Of a stretch of DNA of 56,530 bases, positions 10,904 to 38,977 are shown one piece after another. A model generated the notes under the pieces. The model made no database searches and had not been told where the DNA came from. It was given only the letters and a program-made list of their open reading frames with translations. The position numbers and the translations under genes are program-made. The first letter of the stretch is position 1; each line of letters starts with the position of its first letter. The DNA is taken from NCBI GenBank assembly GCA_945889315.1, contig CAMDBP010000009.1, positions 1 to 56,530 on the forward strand, given 5' to 3'. This DNA is from Chitinophaga pinensis (GTDB taxonomy: Bacteria; Bacteroidota; Bacteroidia; NS11-12g; UBA9320).

Positions 10904-12196
10904 TTATTTGTATATTTTTAACCGTTGTTTAGGATGAATAGTACTTCCCTTTATGCCATTCCACTGTCTGAGTTGAGTAATGGTAACATGATGACGCGTG
11001 GCTATTTTTTGTAAATTATCTCCGTGCTTTACCGTATAGTAGACAACCGTTGGCTTTTTTACTTCTACAACTGGGGCTATACTTTCTGTTTCCAGCGCAG
11101 CTGAATCTTGTTGTACTTTACTTAATTCTGTTATTTCACATTGATTAAGATAGTAAAGATGTACTTTATTCTCTGGAACATGCAAAAGGTATCCATTCCC
11201 ATTATAAGGTATCGATGTTACTTTTAATTCAGGATTAAAACGAAGTAATTCTTCAGTTGATATTTCTAACTTATCGGCTATTATTTTGAAGTTTAGGCCT
11301 TCGTCACAATATACTTTTTGTGTTAAAAAGGAAGTGGCATCATAAGGAACTGGTGTAATGCAATACTCTGAGTGATAATTCATGATGTATGCCATCGCAA
11401 TGAACTTAGGAACGTAGTTTTGCGTTTCGCGAGGCAAGTATGGATATATTCCCCAAAAATTGGTACTTCCTGACAATCGAATGGCTTTGCGGACATTACC
11501 CGGCCCGCAATTATAAGATGCCAAAGCAACTAACCAATCTCCATAAACCGCATACATTCTTTTTAGATAGGAACATGCTGCTCGCGTACTTTTTTCTAAT
11601 GATCTTCTCTCGTCAACACTGCTATTGATGGTCAAGTCATATTCTTTGCCTGTAGCTGACATAAATTGCCATGCTCCAACTGCACCAGAATGTGATCTAG
11701 CATATGGATTTAATCCTGACTCAATAATAGATAAATACTTGATCTCTAATGGCATATTATACTCTGCAAGAATTTCTTCATAAATAGGAAAAACATACTG
11801 CGATTTAGTCACCATTATTTTTAGCTTATCCTGCCATCTTGTTCCAAAAAAATCTATTTGCTTTTTAACCAACTCGTTGTAATCCATCGGTATTTCAAAT
11901 TGCAGCTTGCTTACATGATACCTGTACAAGTTTTCATCCAGTGGCAGTTCATTCGAATCAAAGGTAACCACACCGAATATATCCAATGGAATCTCGAACT
12001 CCGTTTCCATCATTGGCACCACGGCTCCCTGCAGAGAATCAGATGTGTCAATTGGTTCAATTCGAATTGAGTCCACTTTGCTACTTTTGGGAGGCTTTAT
12101 ACCCTCTTTCTCACCATAATTAGTTGCATCTCGCTGCGATGCGAATAGGGCAAATGGGAGTGTGACAAAAAGTAATGCTATTGTGATTATTCTCAT
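10904..12196 (-). CDS. MltD-like lytic transglycosylase with LysM domain
   Basis: The product has 430 residues with a signal peptide (about 1-19, ending LFAS). A Slt-type transglycosylase domain spans about 130-290: the catalytic Glu is in SIIESGLNPYARS near residue 158, followed by GAVGAWQFM and by LASYNCGPGNVRKAI. A degenerate LysM-like region lies near 310-355, and a clear LysM ends the protein (about 386-430, YTVKHGDNLQKIATRH). Such enzymes cut peptidoglycan to 1,6-anhydromuropeptides during wall remodelling. It is transcribed divergently from ald. TACTTTG upstream, one base short of a -7 box, may be part of its promoter. Confidence 0.87.
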   Translation of the reverse strand: MRIITIALLFVTLPFALFASQRDATNYGEKEGIKPPKSSKVDSIRIEPIDTSDSLQGAVVPMMETEFEIPLDIFGVVTFDSNELPLDENLYRYHVSKLQFEIPMDYNELVKKQIDFFGTRWQDKLKIMVTKSQYVFPIYEEILAEYNMPLEIKYLSIIESGLNPYARSHSGAVGAWQFMSATGKEYDLTINSSVDERRSLEKSTRAACSYLKRMYAVYGDWLVALASYNCGPGNVRKAIRLSGSTNFWGIYPYLPRETQNYVPKFIAMAYIMNYHSEYCITPVPYDATSFLTQKVYCDEGLNFKIIADKLEISTEELLRFNPELKVTSIPYNGNGYLLHVPENKVHLYYLNQCEITELSKVQQDSAALETESIAPVVEVKKPTVVYYTVKHGDNLQKIATRHHVTITQLRQWNGIKGSTIHPKQRLKIYK

Positions 12197-33973: not shown

Positions 33974-35239
33974 GTGAACCTTACAAAATTTTACAATCTA
34001 CTCATAGAAAATGAGTTTCGATTTACCACCGACAGCCGGGCAATAACTCCAGGATGCATTTTTTTTGCACTTAAAGGAGACAATTTTAACGGAAATACCT
34101 TTGCTATTCAAGCACTTGAAAAAGGTGCTGCGTATGCCGTTATAGATGAAAACATAGGCGAAAATGACAGACTCATCTTTGTTGCAGATGTGCTCATATT
34201 CATGCAAGAAGTAGCTAATTTTCACCGTAAGTGCTACGACATACCCGTTTTGGGAATATGCGGAAGCAACGGAAAAACGACAACCAAAAATTTGATTTAT
34301 GCCGTTTTAACCCGCAAATACAAAACACATTGCACGCAAGGTAATTTTAACAACCATATCGGCGTACCTATCACCCTATTGCAAATGCCGCAAGATGCGG
34401 AGATAGCCGTTATTGAGCTGGGCACCAATAATCCTGGTGAAATAGCCGCTTTATGCACCATTGCAGAACCTAATTTTGGCTTAATTACCAATATCGGGAA
34501 GGAACATTTAGAAGGATTTGGAACGTTGGAAGCAGTAGCCAAAGAAGAGAGTGAAATCTTTCATTATCTACTTAAATATCAGGGCACTGCGTTTATAAAC
34601 CAAGACGACGAATGGCTTACCCGAATGAGCCGAGGAATAGAAAAAAAGATCCTTTTTTCAAAAGAAAAATGCGATATTACTTCTCTGGTTCCTTCTATCT
34701 CATTTACCTACAAAAATATGGCCTTTACTTCTCCACTTATGGGAGATTATAACTTAGATAACATACTAACTGCAGTTGCTATTGGTGAATATTTCAACAT
34801 TGGATTACATGAAATAAAAGAAGGAATTGCCACGTACCATCCCGATAATAATCGCTCGCAGCTAATCGAAAAAGGCACCAACACCATAATACTTGACGCC
34901 TACAATGCCAATCCAAGCAGTATGCAAGTGGCTATACGCAACTTTGCCAACATGCCACAACCGCAAAAAGTACTTATTCTTGGTGACATGTTTGAAATGG
35001 GACCTACAGCTAATCAAGAGCACGATGAACTTTTACAATGGGCAGTAACTTTTGGCTTTACCCACATTTACACACTTGGACAGCATTTTGCCAGCATTTC
35101 AGTGCATAGCGGAATAACCACTCCATCCTCTATGGAAGAACTAGGCACTCAAGTAAAACGTGCTAATTATACCCAAACGGCATTCTTGATAAAAGGAAGT
35201 CGAGGTATGAAAATGGAAGGCGTTTTGGATTACTTGTAA
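33974..35239 (+). CDS. murF: UDP-N-acetylmuramoyl-tripeptide--D-Ala-D-Ala ligase
   Basis: The product has 421 residues. MurF adds D-Ala-D-Ala to the UDP-MurNAc peptide in the cytosol. It shows the N-terminal MurF domain (DSRAITPGCIFFALKGDNFNG), the P-loop GICGSNGKTTTKNLI near residue 95, the following NFNNHIGVPITLL, AVIELGTNNPGEIAALC near 142 and DAYNANPSSMQVAI near 312. The start is GTG at 33974. It converges with the chimeric gene; an inverted repeat fills the 35-base gap. Confidence 0.93.
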   Translation: MNLTKFYNLLIENEFRFTTDSRAITPGCIFFALKGDNFNGNTFAIQALEKGAAYAVIDENIGENDRLIFVADVLIFMQEVANFHRKCYDIPVLGICGSNGKTTTKNLIYAVLTRKYKTHCTQGNFNNHIGVPITLLQMPQDAEIAVIELGTNNPGEIAALCTIAEPNFGLITNIGKEHLEGFGTLEAVAKEESEIFHYLLKYQGTAFINQDDEWLTRMSRGIEKKILFSKEKCDITSLVPSISFTYKNMAFTSPLMGDYNLDNILTAVAIGEYFNIGLHEIKEGIATYHPDNNRSQLIEKGTNTIILDAYNANPSSMQVAIRNFANMPQPQKVLILGDMFEMGPTANQEHDELLQWAVTFGFTHIYTLGQHFASISVHSGITTPSSMEELGTQVKRANYTQTAFLIKGSRGMKMEGVLDYL

Positions 35240-35275
35240 GTACAAGTGTTGATTGCAAGAGATAAAGTTGTACTT
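35238..35275. repeat. Inverted repeat in the murF convergent gap
   Basis: AAGTACAA at 35238-35245 and TTGTACTT at 35268-35275 pair perfectly around a 22-base spacer between two convergent genes. It may be a weak bidirectional terminator, but it has no T-run. Confidence 0.3.
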
Positions 35276-35937
35276 TATTCTTTTCGGTTGCTTTCTTCTA
35301 CTTGCAACTTCATCAACTGCTCTACTGTGGCAATTTTTTCTATAATGATGCCCTTACTATCTAGCAAAAACATGGTAGGTGTACCCATTACCGCATAGTT
35401 CTTGAAATTAATCCCATTCATACCTTGCCCATCACAGTATTTAGCCTTCCATGGGAAGGAAGCTGCGGTGGTTTTATAAGTATTATGGTCGGTATCGGCT
35501 GCAATGGATACTATTTTTATCCCTTTGACAACCAAATCTTGGTAATTGCTTTTTAACCCGGCATTTAAGGAAAGTTTAATTCCCGTTCTAGCCTCAAAAA
35601 AAGCATATTCAATGACATTCTGAAGCCCTAAGTAGCTTGTTTTCCAAGCATAACTGTTCAAGTCTTTAGATGCTTCAGCATTAAATTCATTATACGTTAA
35701 ACTTACCAAGTAGGTAACATTTTGAATAGGACCTTTTTTGACAGAATGTTTAGGACTAAAGCCTATCTCGTAAAAATTACCCATACCCACTCTGTAATCA
35801 GGTGGAGTGGGACTAACCGGTTGGTTTGTGACAAAATCGTAGCGGGTTATATTTTTACCTGCATGACTAAAAATGTCTTGTGCATATAAATCAGAAATGC
35901 TCAAAAAGGCAATGAATATTAGTAGTTGTTTTCTCAT
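35275..35937 (-). CDS. Probable chimera: outer-membrane-like N-terminus fused to a thioredoxin-like C-terminus
   Basis: The product has 220 residues and two unlike halves. After a signal peptide (about 1-19), residues to about 130 look like Bacteroidota outer-membrane-barrel sequence (GNFYEIGFSPKH, VSLTYNEFNAEASK, NSYAWKTSYLGLQN, TGIKLSLNAGL). From about 131 it reads as the C-terminal half of a TlpA/DUF5106-like thioredoxin: VVKGIKIVSIAADTD, then GTPTMFLLDSKGIIIEK with the cis-Pro. The CxxC half and the rest of the barrel are absent. It looks like an in-frame deletion that joined two neighbouring genes. It overlaps the sorting-domain gene by 4 bases. A function is unlikely to be inherited from either part. 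Confidence 0.6.
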   Translation of the reverse strand: MRKQLLIFIAFLSISDLYAQDIFSHAGKNITRYDFVTNQPVSPTPPDYRVGMGNFYEIGFSPKHSVKKGPIQNVTYLVSLTYNEFNAEASKDLNSYAWKTSYLGLQNVIEYAFFEARTGIKLSLNAGLKSNYQDLVVKGIKIVSIAADTDHNTYKTTAASFPWKAKYCDGQGMNGINFKNYAVMGTPTMFLLDSKGIIIEKIATVEQLMKLQVEESNRKE

Positions 35938-36428
35938 ATTTTTATGATTGTAGTGAAGTAATTAAGATTTGTACCTGAAAGTCTTACCAGGTATTGAGCG
36001 CTAGGTAAAATGGGCATGTCTTCAAGGGTTAGTAGGTTATCGTTTACTGCAGCGGTTTTTTCAAAAACAGATCGTCCGTAGGAATCAAATATGGAAACCT
36101 GAACAGACGTCCATGAAAAATTAGAAAATCTAAAATTTAGCACCTCACGAAAAGGATTGGGATAGGTTGTGATCATAATTCCACCACTTAAGGGTGTTTT
36201 TAGCAGTTCTCGCCAATAGGTCTGTTGAAATCCTTGTTGAACAATTATATCACCTTGACAATTCCCTGAAACGGACTGTTGTCCTACAGTTTGTTTAATA
36301 ATAAATCCAGATGACGTGTTGGAAGACGCCCCTTGCGAACTGATCATTTGATGATGTAGCCGTTGAGCAAATACGCCGTTTGAAGCCAAAAAGGCCAAGC
36401 AAAATAGAAGTACGTAGTATTTTTTCAT
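35934..36428 (-). CDS. Short secreted protein with T9SS sorting domain
   Basis: The product has 164 residues with a signal peptide (about 1-21, ending VFAQ). The central part (HHQMISSQGASSN, IIKQTVGQQSVSGN, IIVQQGFQQ) is a small conserved module seen in many Bacteroidota secreted proteins. The last 80 residues (ITTYPNPFREVLNF to YLVRLSGTN) are a T9SS sorting domain. No catalytic motif is present. Its ATG precedes the chimeric gene, which it overlaps by 4 bases, so the two are likely co-translated. Confidence 0.78.
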   Translation of the reverse strand: MKKYYVLLFCLAFLASNGVFAQRLHHQMISSQGASSNTSSGFIIKQTVGQQSVSGNCQGDIIVQQGFQQTYWRELLKTPLSGGIMITTYPNPFREVLNFRFSNFSWTSVQVSIFDSYGRSVFEKTAAVNDNLLTLEDMPILPSAQYLVRLSGTNLNYFTTIIKI

Positions 36429-36469
36429 AGTTCTTTTAAGGGTGATTCATCAGTACTCTGTGTTTTTTT

Positions 36470-36694
36470 TTAAAATAGTGGCGCTAGCCGAGTAATATCT
36501 TGAGCAGGAATGACGCCGAAAAAGTGCTTCGTGGATAAACCGGGTGTAAGCGTATTCAGATGAGTGATTTCACTAAAAAAAAGATGAAGTAAGTTACCAG
36601 TACCCGATGGAACATAGATTTCTTTTATTTGATGTAAAGAAAATTTAAGATATTCTAGAAGAAAAAATAGAATAGAAGTTATACCCTTTTTCAT
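36470..36694 (-). CDS. Possible small protein, unassigned
   Basis: A 74-codon ORF starting at ATG 36694 encodes MKKGITSILFFLLEYLKFSL and more, with a hydrophobic N-terminus that could be a signal, then low-similarity sequence. It lies 41 bases upstream of the sorting-domain gene on the same strand. I do not recognise it, and it may be chance or decay. Confidence 0.25.
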   Translation of the reverse strand: MKKGITSILFFLLEYLKFSLHQIKEIYVPSGTGNLLHLFFSEITHLNTLTPGLSTKHFFGVIPAQDITRLAPLF

Positions 36695-36843
36695 AGCATT
36701 TAATCATAAAATTTAGATACAGAATTTCACTACACTAAATGATACACAGCATCATAAAGAGTAATAAAAACACTGTACCTAAAAATAGTAAATTTATTAG
36801 AGTTTTCATAGCCAAAAGAGCTTTACTAATAAATAAGCTATGC

Positions 36844-36902
36844 GAATATTGCATTAAAAACAGAAAAACAAACTATTATTTTAAAGAATATTGCACTAAA
36901 AA
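36844..36902. repeat. Near-identical 17-base direct repeat
   Basis: GAATATTGCATTAAAAA (36844-36860) recurs as GAATATTGCACTAAAAA (36886-36902), 16 of 17 matching, with 42 bases between starts. The second copy overlaps the spacer of the inverted repeat at 36866. Confidence 0.55.
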
Positions 36903-36913
36903 ATAGTTTGTTT
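36866..36913. repeat. 12-bp inverted repeat, 24-base spacer
   Basis: AAACAAACTATT (36866-36877) pairs perfectly with AATAGTTTGTTT (36902-36913). It could fold as a hairpin in RNA from either strand, or act as an operator-like site. Nothing else identifies it. Confidence 0.45.
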
Positions 36914-37125
36914 AATAGATTTATAAATAATGTATAAATAGTTAAACAAAGTGGCGTAAGACAGGCTAAAAACTAAAAGGTAAATCATCTTTTAAAGCTA
37001 TTTTAGATGACGATGGAGAATAATATCAAACTAAAATTAGAGTATCATATGCAGATAAAACATATTTTTTCTTCAAAATGAATTTGTGAGTATTGTGCCC
37101 TAAATAAAATTTAGGCTTTAATGAA

Positions 37126-38775
37126 TTACCCTTTGAGCAATTCTTTGCTTTGCTCCACCGCATGCGCTGTAAGTGTATCGCCACTTATCATTTTGGCAAT
37201 TTCGTTTATGCGTTCTTCACCTTTCAAGATTCGGACCTGCGTTTCAACACTAGAATCCTTTTCTGACTTATATACAAATAGATGATTTTGGCCTAAAGAA
37301 GCTATTTGAGGTAAATGCGTAATCACAATTACCTGTTGACTGCTGGACATTTGTTGCATCATTCCTCCCACTTTTCGGGCAATCTCACCACTTACACCTG
37401 TATCTATTTCATCATAAATACTACTTGGCATTTTTACGAAATCGGCTAAAATACTCTTCAAACTTAGGTTAATACGGGCTAACTCGCCCCCTGAGGCGGC
37501 TTTCTTTAAATCTGTGAACGAATTTCCTTTATCCGAGCTTAGCTTTATGGTTAAGTCATCACATCCAAAAGCATTCAATTCATGGCTCTTTGCTAAATCG
37601 AAGTGAATACGCGAGTGCTGCATTCCCAGTTGCGCAAGTAAGTCGTCTATACGCTGCTCAATTTGCGTTGCATTCTTTTTTCGTTTTTTACTTAATTGCA
37701 GGGCTTTAGTAAATAGTAGTGCTTCTTGTTTTGTTATGCTTTGCTCTAGTATGGCTATTTCTCCGGTCAGGCTTTCGGTAACGTTTAGTTTGCGTTCAAG
37801 TTCATTGCGCAGCGATATTAATTCAGGTATATCTGTGGCTCTATGTTTATTTTTTAAGTTGAATATCAAGCCTAATTTTTCGTTAACTTCTGTCAATCGC
37901 TCTGGATTCACCTCAATTCGCTCTGCATTCTTAGCTATTTCATGTGCTATATCTTGCATTTCAATTAACACACCATTTACACGATTATTTAATTCTTCGG
38001 TTACGGATATTTTTTGGGATTTAAGAATACTTTGTAACTCGTAAAGTAGAGAAGTTATCGCTATTTCAGAACCACTCACTAATTGATCAGCATCATTAAA
38101 CGTTCGGATTAAATCTTCTGCATTTTCCAAAAGGTCTTGTTCTACAGCAAGCTCAGCTTCGTCTATAAATTCTAACTTAACGGCAGCCAACTCATCAAAC
38201 AGAAATTGATTAAAGTCACTTTCTTTGGCTAATTCGGATTCTTGTTGGCGATACTTTTCGAGCGTAGTGTTATCTTTTTTCAAAGTTTTTAAGTCGTTTG
38301 CATAGGCTTTTTGGTCCTCTAATAATCCTGTGAGGATATCTAAACTGTAATACTGAAAATCGGTTTTAAATAACTGAAGATTATCATGTTGAGAATGAAT
38401 TTCAATCAGATTCGCTCCTAATTCTTCAAGTGATTTCAGATTAACGGGAGTGTCATTTATAAAGGAGCGACTTTTACCGCTACTAGTAATTTCTCGTCTT
38501 AAGATAGTTAGCTCTTCATAGTCTAGATCATGCGTATTAAAAATATGTTGAAGTTCATACCCTCTGACATCAAACGTAGCTTCTATTATACACTTATCTT
38601 CTTTATTTCGAAGGGAAGAAATATCTGCACGTTTGCCAAGAGCTAAACCCAAAGCACCTATTAAAATAGACTTACCTGCACCCGTTTCACCCGTTATAAT
38701 GTTCATCCCTTTATCAAAATGCATATCTACATCTGAGATCAGGGCATAATTTTTTACTTTTAGACTTATGAGCAT
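37126..38775 (-). CDS. recN: DNA repair ATPase RecN
   Basis: The product has 549 residues. RecN is an SMC-like protein that tethers DNA ends in double-strand-break repair. Walker A is TGETGAGKSILIGALGLALG near residue 28. A coiled-coil middle follows (about 150-370), then the ABC signature AASGGELARINLSLKS near 430 and Walker B YDEIDTGVSG near 457. I start at ATG 38775 (MLISLKVKNYA, the family beginning); a longer in-frame start at 38811 would add 12 residues. A perfect -7 box lies 9 bases upstream, which fits the shorter form. It is divergent from surE. Confidence 0.95.
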   Translation of the reverse strand: MLISLKVKNYALISDVDMHFDKGMNIITGETGAGKSILIGALGLALGKRADISSLRNKEDKCIIEATFDVRGYELQHIFNTHDLDYEELTILRREITSSGKSRSFINDTPVNLKSLEELGANLIEIHSQHDNLQLFKTDFQYYSLDILTGLLEDQKAYANDLKTLKKDNTTLEKYRQQESELAKESDFNQFLFDELAAVKLEFIDEAELAVEQDLLENAEDLIRTFNDADQLVSGSEIAITSLLYELQSILKSQKISVTEELNNRVNGVLIEMQDIAHEIAKNAERIEVNPERLTEVNEKLGLIFNLKNKHRATDIPELISLRNELERKLNVTESLTGEIAILEQSITKQEALLFTKALQLSKKRKKNATQIEQRIDDLLAQLGMQHSRIHFDLAKSHELNAFGCDDLTIKLSSDKGNSFTDLKKAASGGELARINLSLKSILADFVKMPSSIYDEIDTGVSGEIARKVGGMMQQMSSSQQVIVITHLPQIASLGQNHLFVYKSEKDSSVETQVRILKGEERINEIAKMISGDTLTAHAVEQSKELLKG

Positions 38776-38784
38776 ATTACGTAG

Positions 38785-38792
38785 CAAATGTA
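38785..38792 (-). promoter_or_regulatory. -7 promoter box of recN
   Basis: The minus strand reads TACATTTG, an exact TAnnTTTG match, ending 9 bases before ATG 38775. A TTTG about 16 bases further upstream could be its -33 element. It supports the shorter RecN start. Confidence 0.6.
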
Positions 38793-38977
38793 AATTAATA
38801 TTATCAAACAAACGGATAAAAATATTATCATTTAACGACTTTTATCTACCCAAACGAGTCGCTGTAAAGAATGATGCTTTTGAAGTGTTTAATACGGTAA
38901 TTGCAAGAAATGTCTAATATAACAAACACAGTTAGCAAGGTGAGCGTTGTCTGCACTTCATTAACTAACCGTTACCC

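Follow-up and report, generated by a model that had tools for sequence, protein, structure and literature searches.

A probably non-functional fusion of barrel-gene and thioredoxin-gene fragments between recN and murF in a Bacteroidota genome

The window, that is the whole stretch of 56,530 nucleotides analyzed here, is contig 9 of a draft assembly (2.13 Mb, 98 contigs, about 91% complete) and carries on its minus strand an open reading frame (ORF) of 220 residues (35275-35937) with an ATG start. This ORF is a natural chimera in which the start of an outer-membrane barrel gene runs on into the end of an unrelated gene of thioredoxin type. We put a probability of roughly 85% on the reading that two broken genes were fused in frame by accident at a gene-turnover site, most likely giving a non-functional pseudogene whose frame is still open. 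The first-pass annotation, made from the letters alone, had already proposed a chimera of a barrel and a thioredoxin-like protein; this was borne out when the halves were searched separately, as the searches led to two intact parent families that meet at the same 8 bp. The whole protein matches Thioredoxin_8 alone in Pfam, at 26.5 bits and slightly below the cut-off, and third-position GC differs between its two halves (0.29 vs. 0.43).

The position of the join was given independently by two parental DNA alignments, one per side. In blastn comparisons, the barrel gene of G002, a genome of the same genus, aligns over 35552-35717 and the thioredoxin gene of L132 over 35345-35559, and the only bases common to both are GGGTTAAA (35552..35559, minus strand; codons G127, L128, and K129), which each alignment enters and then ends. 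The ORF thus has two separate intact parents with alignments meeting at one point, as is characteristic of a gene fusion, and the junction earlier suggested near 35540-35560 includes the measured interval. At the join the G002 barrel gene reads GGAGTAAAT and the L132 thioredoxin gene GGGTTGAAA, which makes it plausible, if impossible to prove, that the ancestral parents had a short word in common here. The exact join sequence was absent from viral contigs.

Residues 1-126 (35560..35937, minus strand) represent the 5' part of the barrel gene, which encodes the signal peptide, strands 1-4, and strand 5 up to its middle. A tblastn search with the chimera matched G002 over residues 1-129 only (52% identity, E 2e-35; 53% in a pairwise comparison of the N-terminal part), and the intact 207-residue protein of G125 over residues 2-118 (36% identity, E 4e-18), in agreement with the initial description of residues 1-130 as a signal and the first barrel strands. 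Intact barrel proteins of closer relatives are about 204-220 residues long. An AlphaFold model of the G125 protein with nine relatives has eight long strands at a pLDDT of 85, and in Foldseek its best PDB match is OmpA, with OmpW, NspA, OmpX, and others also found; the Pfam family OMP_b-brl matches these proteins weakly and exceeds the cut-off for the G695 homologue. The chimera departs from the family midway through strand 5 (115-135), at the position of residue 121 in G125, and the G002 sequence goes on as a barrel beyond the join point, to the end of its contig. The chimera has the signal peptide and N-terminal sequence of this OmpA-type family and its place behind a sorting-domain gene; a closed eight-stranded barrel reaching the C-terminus is lacking.

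The upstream gene (35934..36428, minus strand) encodes a T9SS type A sorting domain (Por_Secre_tail PF18962, 33.1 bits; TIGR04183, 32.2 bits; both above cut-off) and is the usual upstream partner of the barrel gene. It overlaps the chimeric ORF by the four bases ATGA at 35934-35937, so that both the intact frame and the four-base overlap recorded at first hold. The pair of sorting gene and barrel gene also occurs in G002, G125, G636, G758, and G695: in G125 the barrel gene begins within the stop of the sorting gene with a four-base overlap as in the chimera, and the identical overlap is kept in G636, G758, and G695. The barrel homologues of G102 and G558 likewise have a sorting gene upstream.

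Residues 127-209 (35311..35559, minus strand) are the counterpart of the last 83 residues or so of TlpA-like parents (51-64% identity), a 3' tail of alpha-beta character with a cis-Pro loop and no CxxC. In tblastn searches, the C-terminal part was 60% identical to L132 (residues 113-209), 51% to L133, and 57% to L134 (E 7e-37 to 3e-31); in pairwise comparisons it is 64% identical to L132, which in turn is 68% identical to L133 and 52% to L134. The intact relatives have 450 (L132) and 478 (L133) residues, and L134 is cut by the end of its contig; proteins of this type score above cut-off for AhpC-TSA and Thioredoxin_8 in Pfam and match solved TlpA-like structures such as 3hcz. All three carry FYQSDCGHCETAIEGLK, with the redox CxxC (CGHC or CGPC) a few residues ahead of the join point. 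The chimera retains the cis-Pro loop MGTPTMFLLD and the C-terminal beta-beta-alpha (GTPTMFLLDSKG), and its single Cys sits in YCDG, so that the loop without a CxxC had been correctly read. L135 and G016 (C22) carry orphan 3' tails of the same family that have lost the gene body and have broken frames; debris of this family therefore recurs and is not unique to the window.

The last residues of the ORF, about ten in number (LQVEESNRKE; 35275..35310, minus strand), come after VEQLMK and correspond to DNA that is intergenic in G018, beside murF. Window positions 35237-35316 align with G018 DNA over and past the stop of a TlpA gene (74% over 84 bp), and the stop TAG of that gene aligns to TTG in the window. 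The simplest reading is that this extension probably arose by read-through of a lost thioredoxin stop. The first assignment of residues 131-220 to the second half of a TlpA-type protein was right as to the thioredoxin tail; its boundary lay about four residues late (the break is at G127-K129), and the final ten residues or so are former intergenic sequence.

The chimera lies between a convergent murF-like gene (33974..35239, plus strand; 95% identical in G018, 92% in G003, and 90% in G012) and a recN-like gene (37126..38811, minus strand). recN and murF stand opposite each other over a gap in many genomes of the genus, and this recN-murF arrangement is found in G003, G012, G005, G004, G016, G010, G008, G011, G007, and G009. 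The gene content of the gap, 35240-37125 in the window, turns over within the genus. The gap holds the sorting gene and the chimera in the window, is 254 bp long and gene-free in G003, and contains two other genes in G012; in G018 a TlpA gene of 459 residues lies next to murF, then come a RelE-like and a FISUMP-like gene, and the contig stops before recN. The C-terminal part of the chimera is only 38% identical to the G018 TlpA gene, compared with 95% for MurF between the same genomes, and the two species thus carry different thioredoxin genes at one site.

Several further features of these loci were observed. Intact TlpA-like genes repeatedly lie behind FISUMP-like (major paralogous domain) genes (L132 2244-3425; L133 1514-2464 and 3273-3866; L077 12046-13011; L074 2-355), which suggests that the pair travels as a cassette. 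G018 (L074:1150-1540) and G008 (L077, near 11460-11850) have about 390 bp in common at 95% DNA identity, covering the end of the RelE-like gene, the leader, and the signal peptide of the TlpA genes; identity is 100% for the opening 60 bp of the TlpA gene and then falls sharply to about 57%, a pattern that reads as replacement of the coding body behind a conserved leader. With only 71% identity between MurF of G008 and MurF of the window genome, the leader seems to have been shared recently. Window positions 36925-36970 and G000:C24:18171-18217 carry a 47-bp repeat (87% identical; core TTAAACAAAGTNNNGTAAGACAGGC) that occurs at these two places only in the source genome, and 18 relatives all lack its core; the inverted words TTTGTTTAA/TTAAACAAA and a palindrome at 36866-36913 flank the repeat, which may be the end of a mobile element or serve in regulation. 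Upstream of the sorting-domain gene lies a 74-codon ORF (36470-36694, minus strand) that may be debris; a DNA search with this stretch gave no relative within the genus.

The searches for homologues covered 58 relatives, all 38 genomes of the family, a sample of 395 from the phylum, and 84,980 species genomes, the last in a scan sensitive to close relatives only. Full-length homologues of 220 residues, which the first-pass annotation had named as evidence against a chimera, were found neither in about 450 whole genomes nor in that scan. Among the relatives, the whole chimera matched G002 over residues 1-129 only and the others over residues 130-215 or so only; among the phylum genomes, G125 matched the N-terminal part and others the thioredoxin part, with a few matches extending shortly upstream. 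Searches of the source genome by DNA, protein, barrel family, and TlpA parents returned no second copy of either half, and the missing parts of both parents were not found elsewhere in it. The initial explanation, an in-frame deletion fusing two adjacent minus-strand genes, stands as regards an in-frame fusion of two genes; the intact two-gene arrangement that it predicted was sought and found in no relative, each parent occurring in its own cassette and the barrel homologues examined having no thioredoxin gene behind them, so that the step before the fusion is one that we infer. There were no matches in plasmids, phage matches were weak and of thioredoxin type only, and Rfam gave no match. 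A literature search brought up nothing directly comparable.

Chimeric ORFs and gene-fusion pseudogenes arise in bacteria through short-homology deletions. Here, the two parents would once have lain co-oriented within the recN-murF gap, and either a deletion at short homology (8 bp or fewer) or the insertion of one cassette into the other would have joined them, with illegitimate recombination of microhomology size as the route. An in-frame join would be expected by chance in about one in three cases, and the in-frame state therefore needs no selection. Loss of the thioredoxin stop after the fusion would then have added the ten or so terminal residues. The product would be made along with the sorting protein and exported through its signal peptide, and, neither closing a barrel nor performing thiol chemistry, would most likely misfold and be degraded. 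Closing an eight-stranded barrel takes more than 4.5 strands, and a thioredoxin tail without the CxxC, the first strand, and the first helix cannot carry out thiol exchange. The chimera was folded in AlphaFold with thioredoxin rows only, because MAFFT misplaced combined alignments of both parts; the mean pLDDT was 47, against 85 for the intact barrel, and with alignment rows for the C-terminal part only, the low confidence of the N-terminal half says little. With 4.5 barrel strands, no redox motif, and no confident fold, the product is probably inert.

The distance of each half from its intact relatives is about the same as the distances among these relatives, and so no decay since the fusion is evident; as neither half diverges faster than its intact relatives and the frame is open, the fusion would be either recent or kept. 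We infer a recent fusion pseudogene. That the fusion has instead become a working gene, its product exported, held or spaced by the half-barrel as an anchor or spacer, and binding through the thioredoxin remnant, we consider improbable: the open frame, the signal peptide, the ATGA coupling, and the lack of identity loss in either half relative to intact homologues would fit, but the barrel part lacks half of strand 5 and all of strands 6-8, the thioredoxin part lacks the CxxC as well as its first strand and first helix, the C-terminus is ragged from an apparent stop loss, the fusion is known from one genome only, and the orphan tails that this thioredoxin family has left elsewhere are clearly dead. 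Slightly less credit is given to translation, export, and retention by selection as a newborn periplasmic protein of half-barrel and half-thioredoxin. An assembly error at the join is about as improbable as a working gene; the assembly is a fragmented draft and the intact two-gene order is not seen in relatives, yet recN on one side of the join and murF on the other tie both sides to a single conserved locus, the frame is open over the join, and words near it that are repeated in the window do not exceed 13 bp. As the shared word is at most 8 bp and neither half has a second copy in the assembly, the assembler had no overlap to mislead it. A single old family with a new fold merely resembling two others, the alternative raised at first, would accord with the lack of a Pfam match up to cut-off for the whole protein and is contradicted by strong, separate, non-overlapping matches to two intact families, each continuing past the join elsewhere, and by the lack of any full-length relative; we regard it as almost certainly wrong.

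The accidental fusion offers a base-resolved case in which gene turnover between two conserved genes would have left an open and probably meaningless ORF. Automatic annotation would label it a hypothetical protein, and such ORFs should not be taken for new families; the chimera would be of broader interest only if its product were proved to be made and retained. Compared with the Bacteroidota OMP_b-brl (PF13505) barrels encoded behind T9SS type A sorting genes, it has the same residues 1-126, upstream gene, and four-base overlap, but thioredoxin sequence in place of strands 6-8 and half of strand 5. With the Bacteroidota TlpA/ResA-like thioredoxin-domain proteins (430-478 residues; Thioredoxin_8, AhpC-TSA) it shares residues 127-209 and the loop GTPTMFLLD, whereas the first 360 or so residues of the parent, CxxC included, are absent. 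It differs from bacterial fusion pseudogenes formed by short-homology deletion in that the genes come from unrelated cassettes at a variable intergenic site and their pre-fusion order is not recovered; like them, it links two truncated genes in frame at a point where they have a few bases in common.
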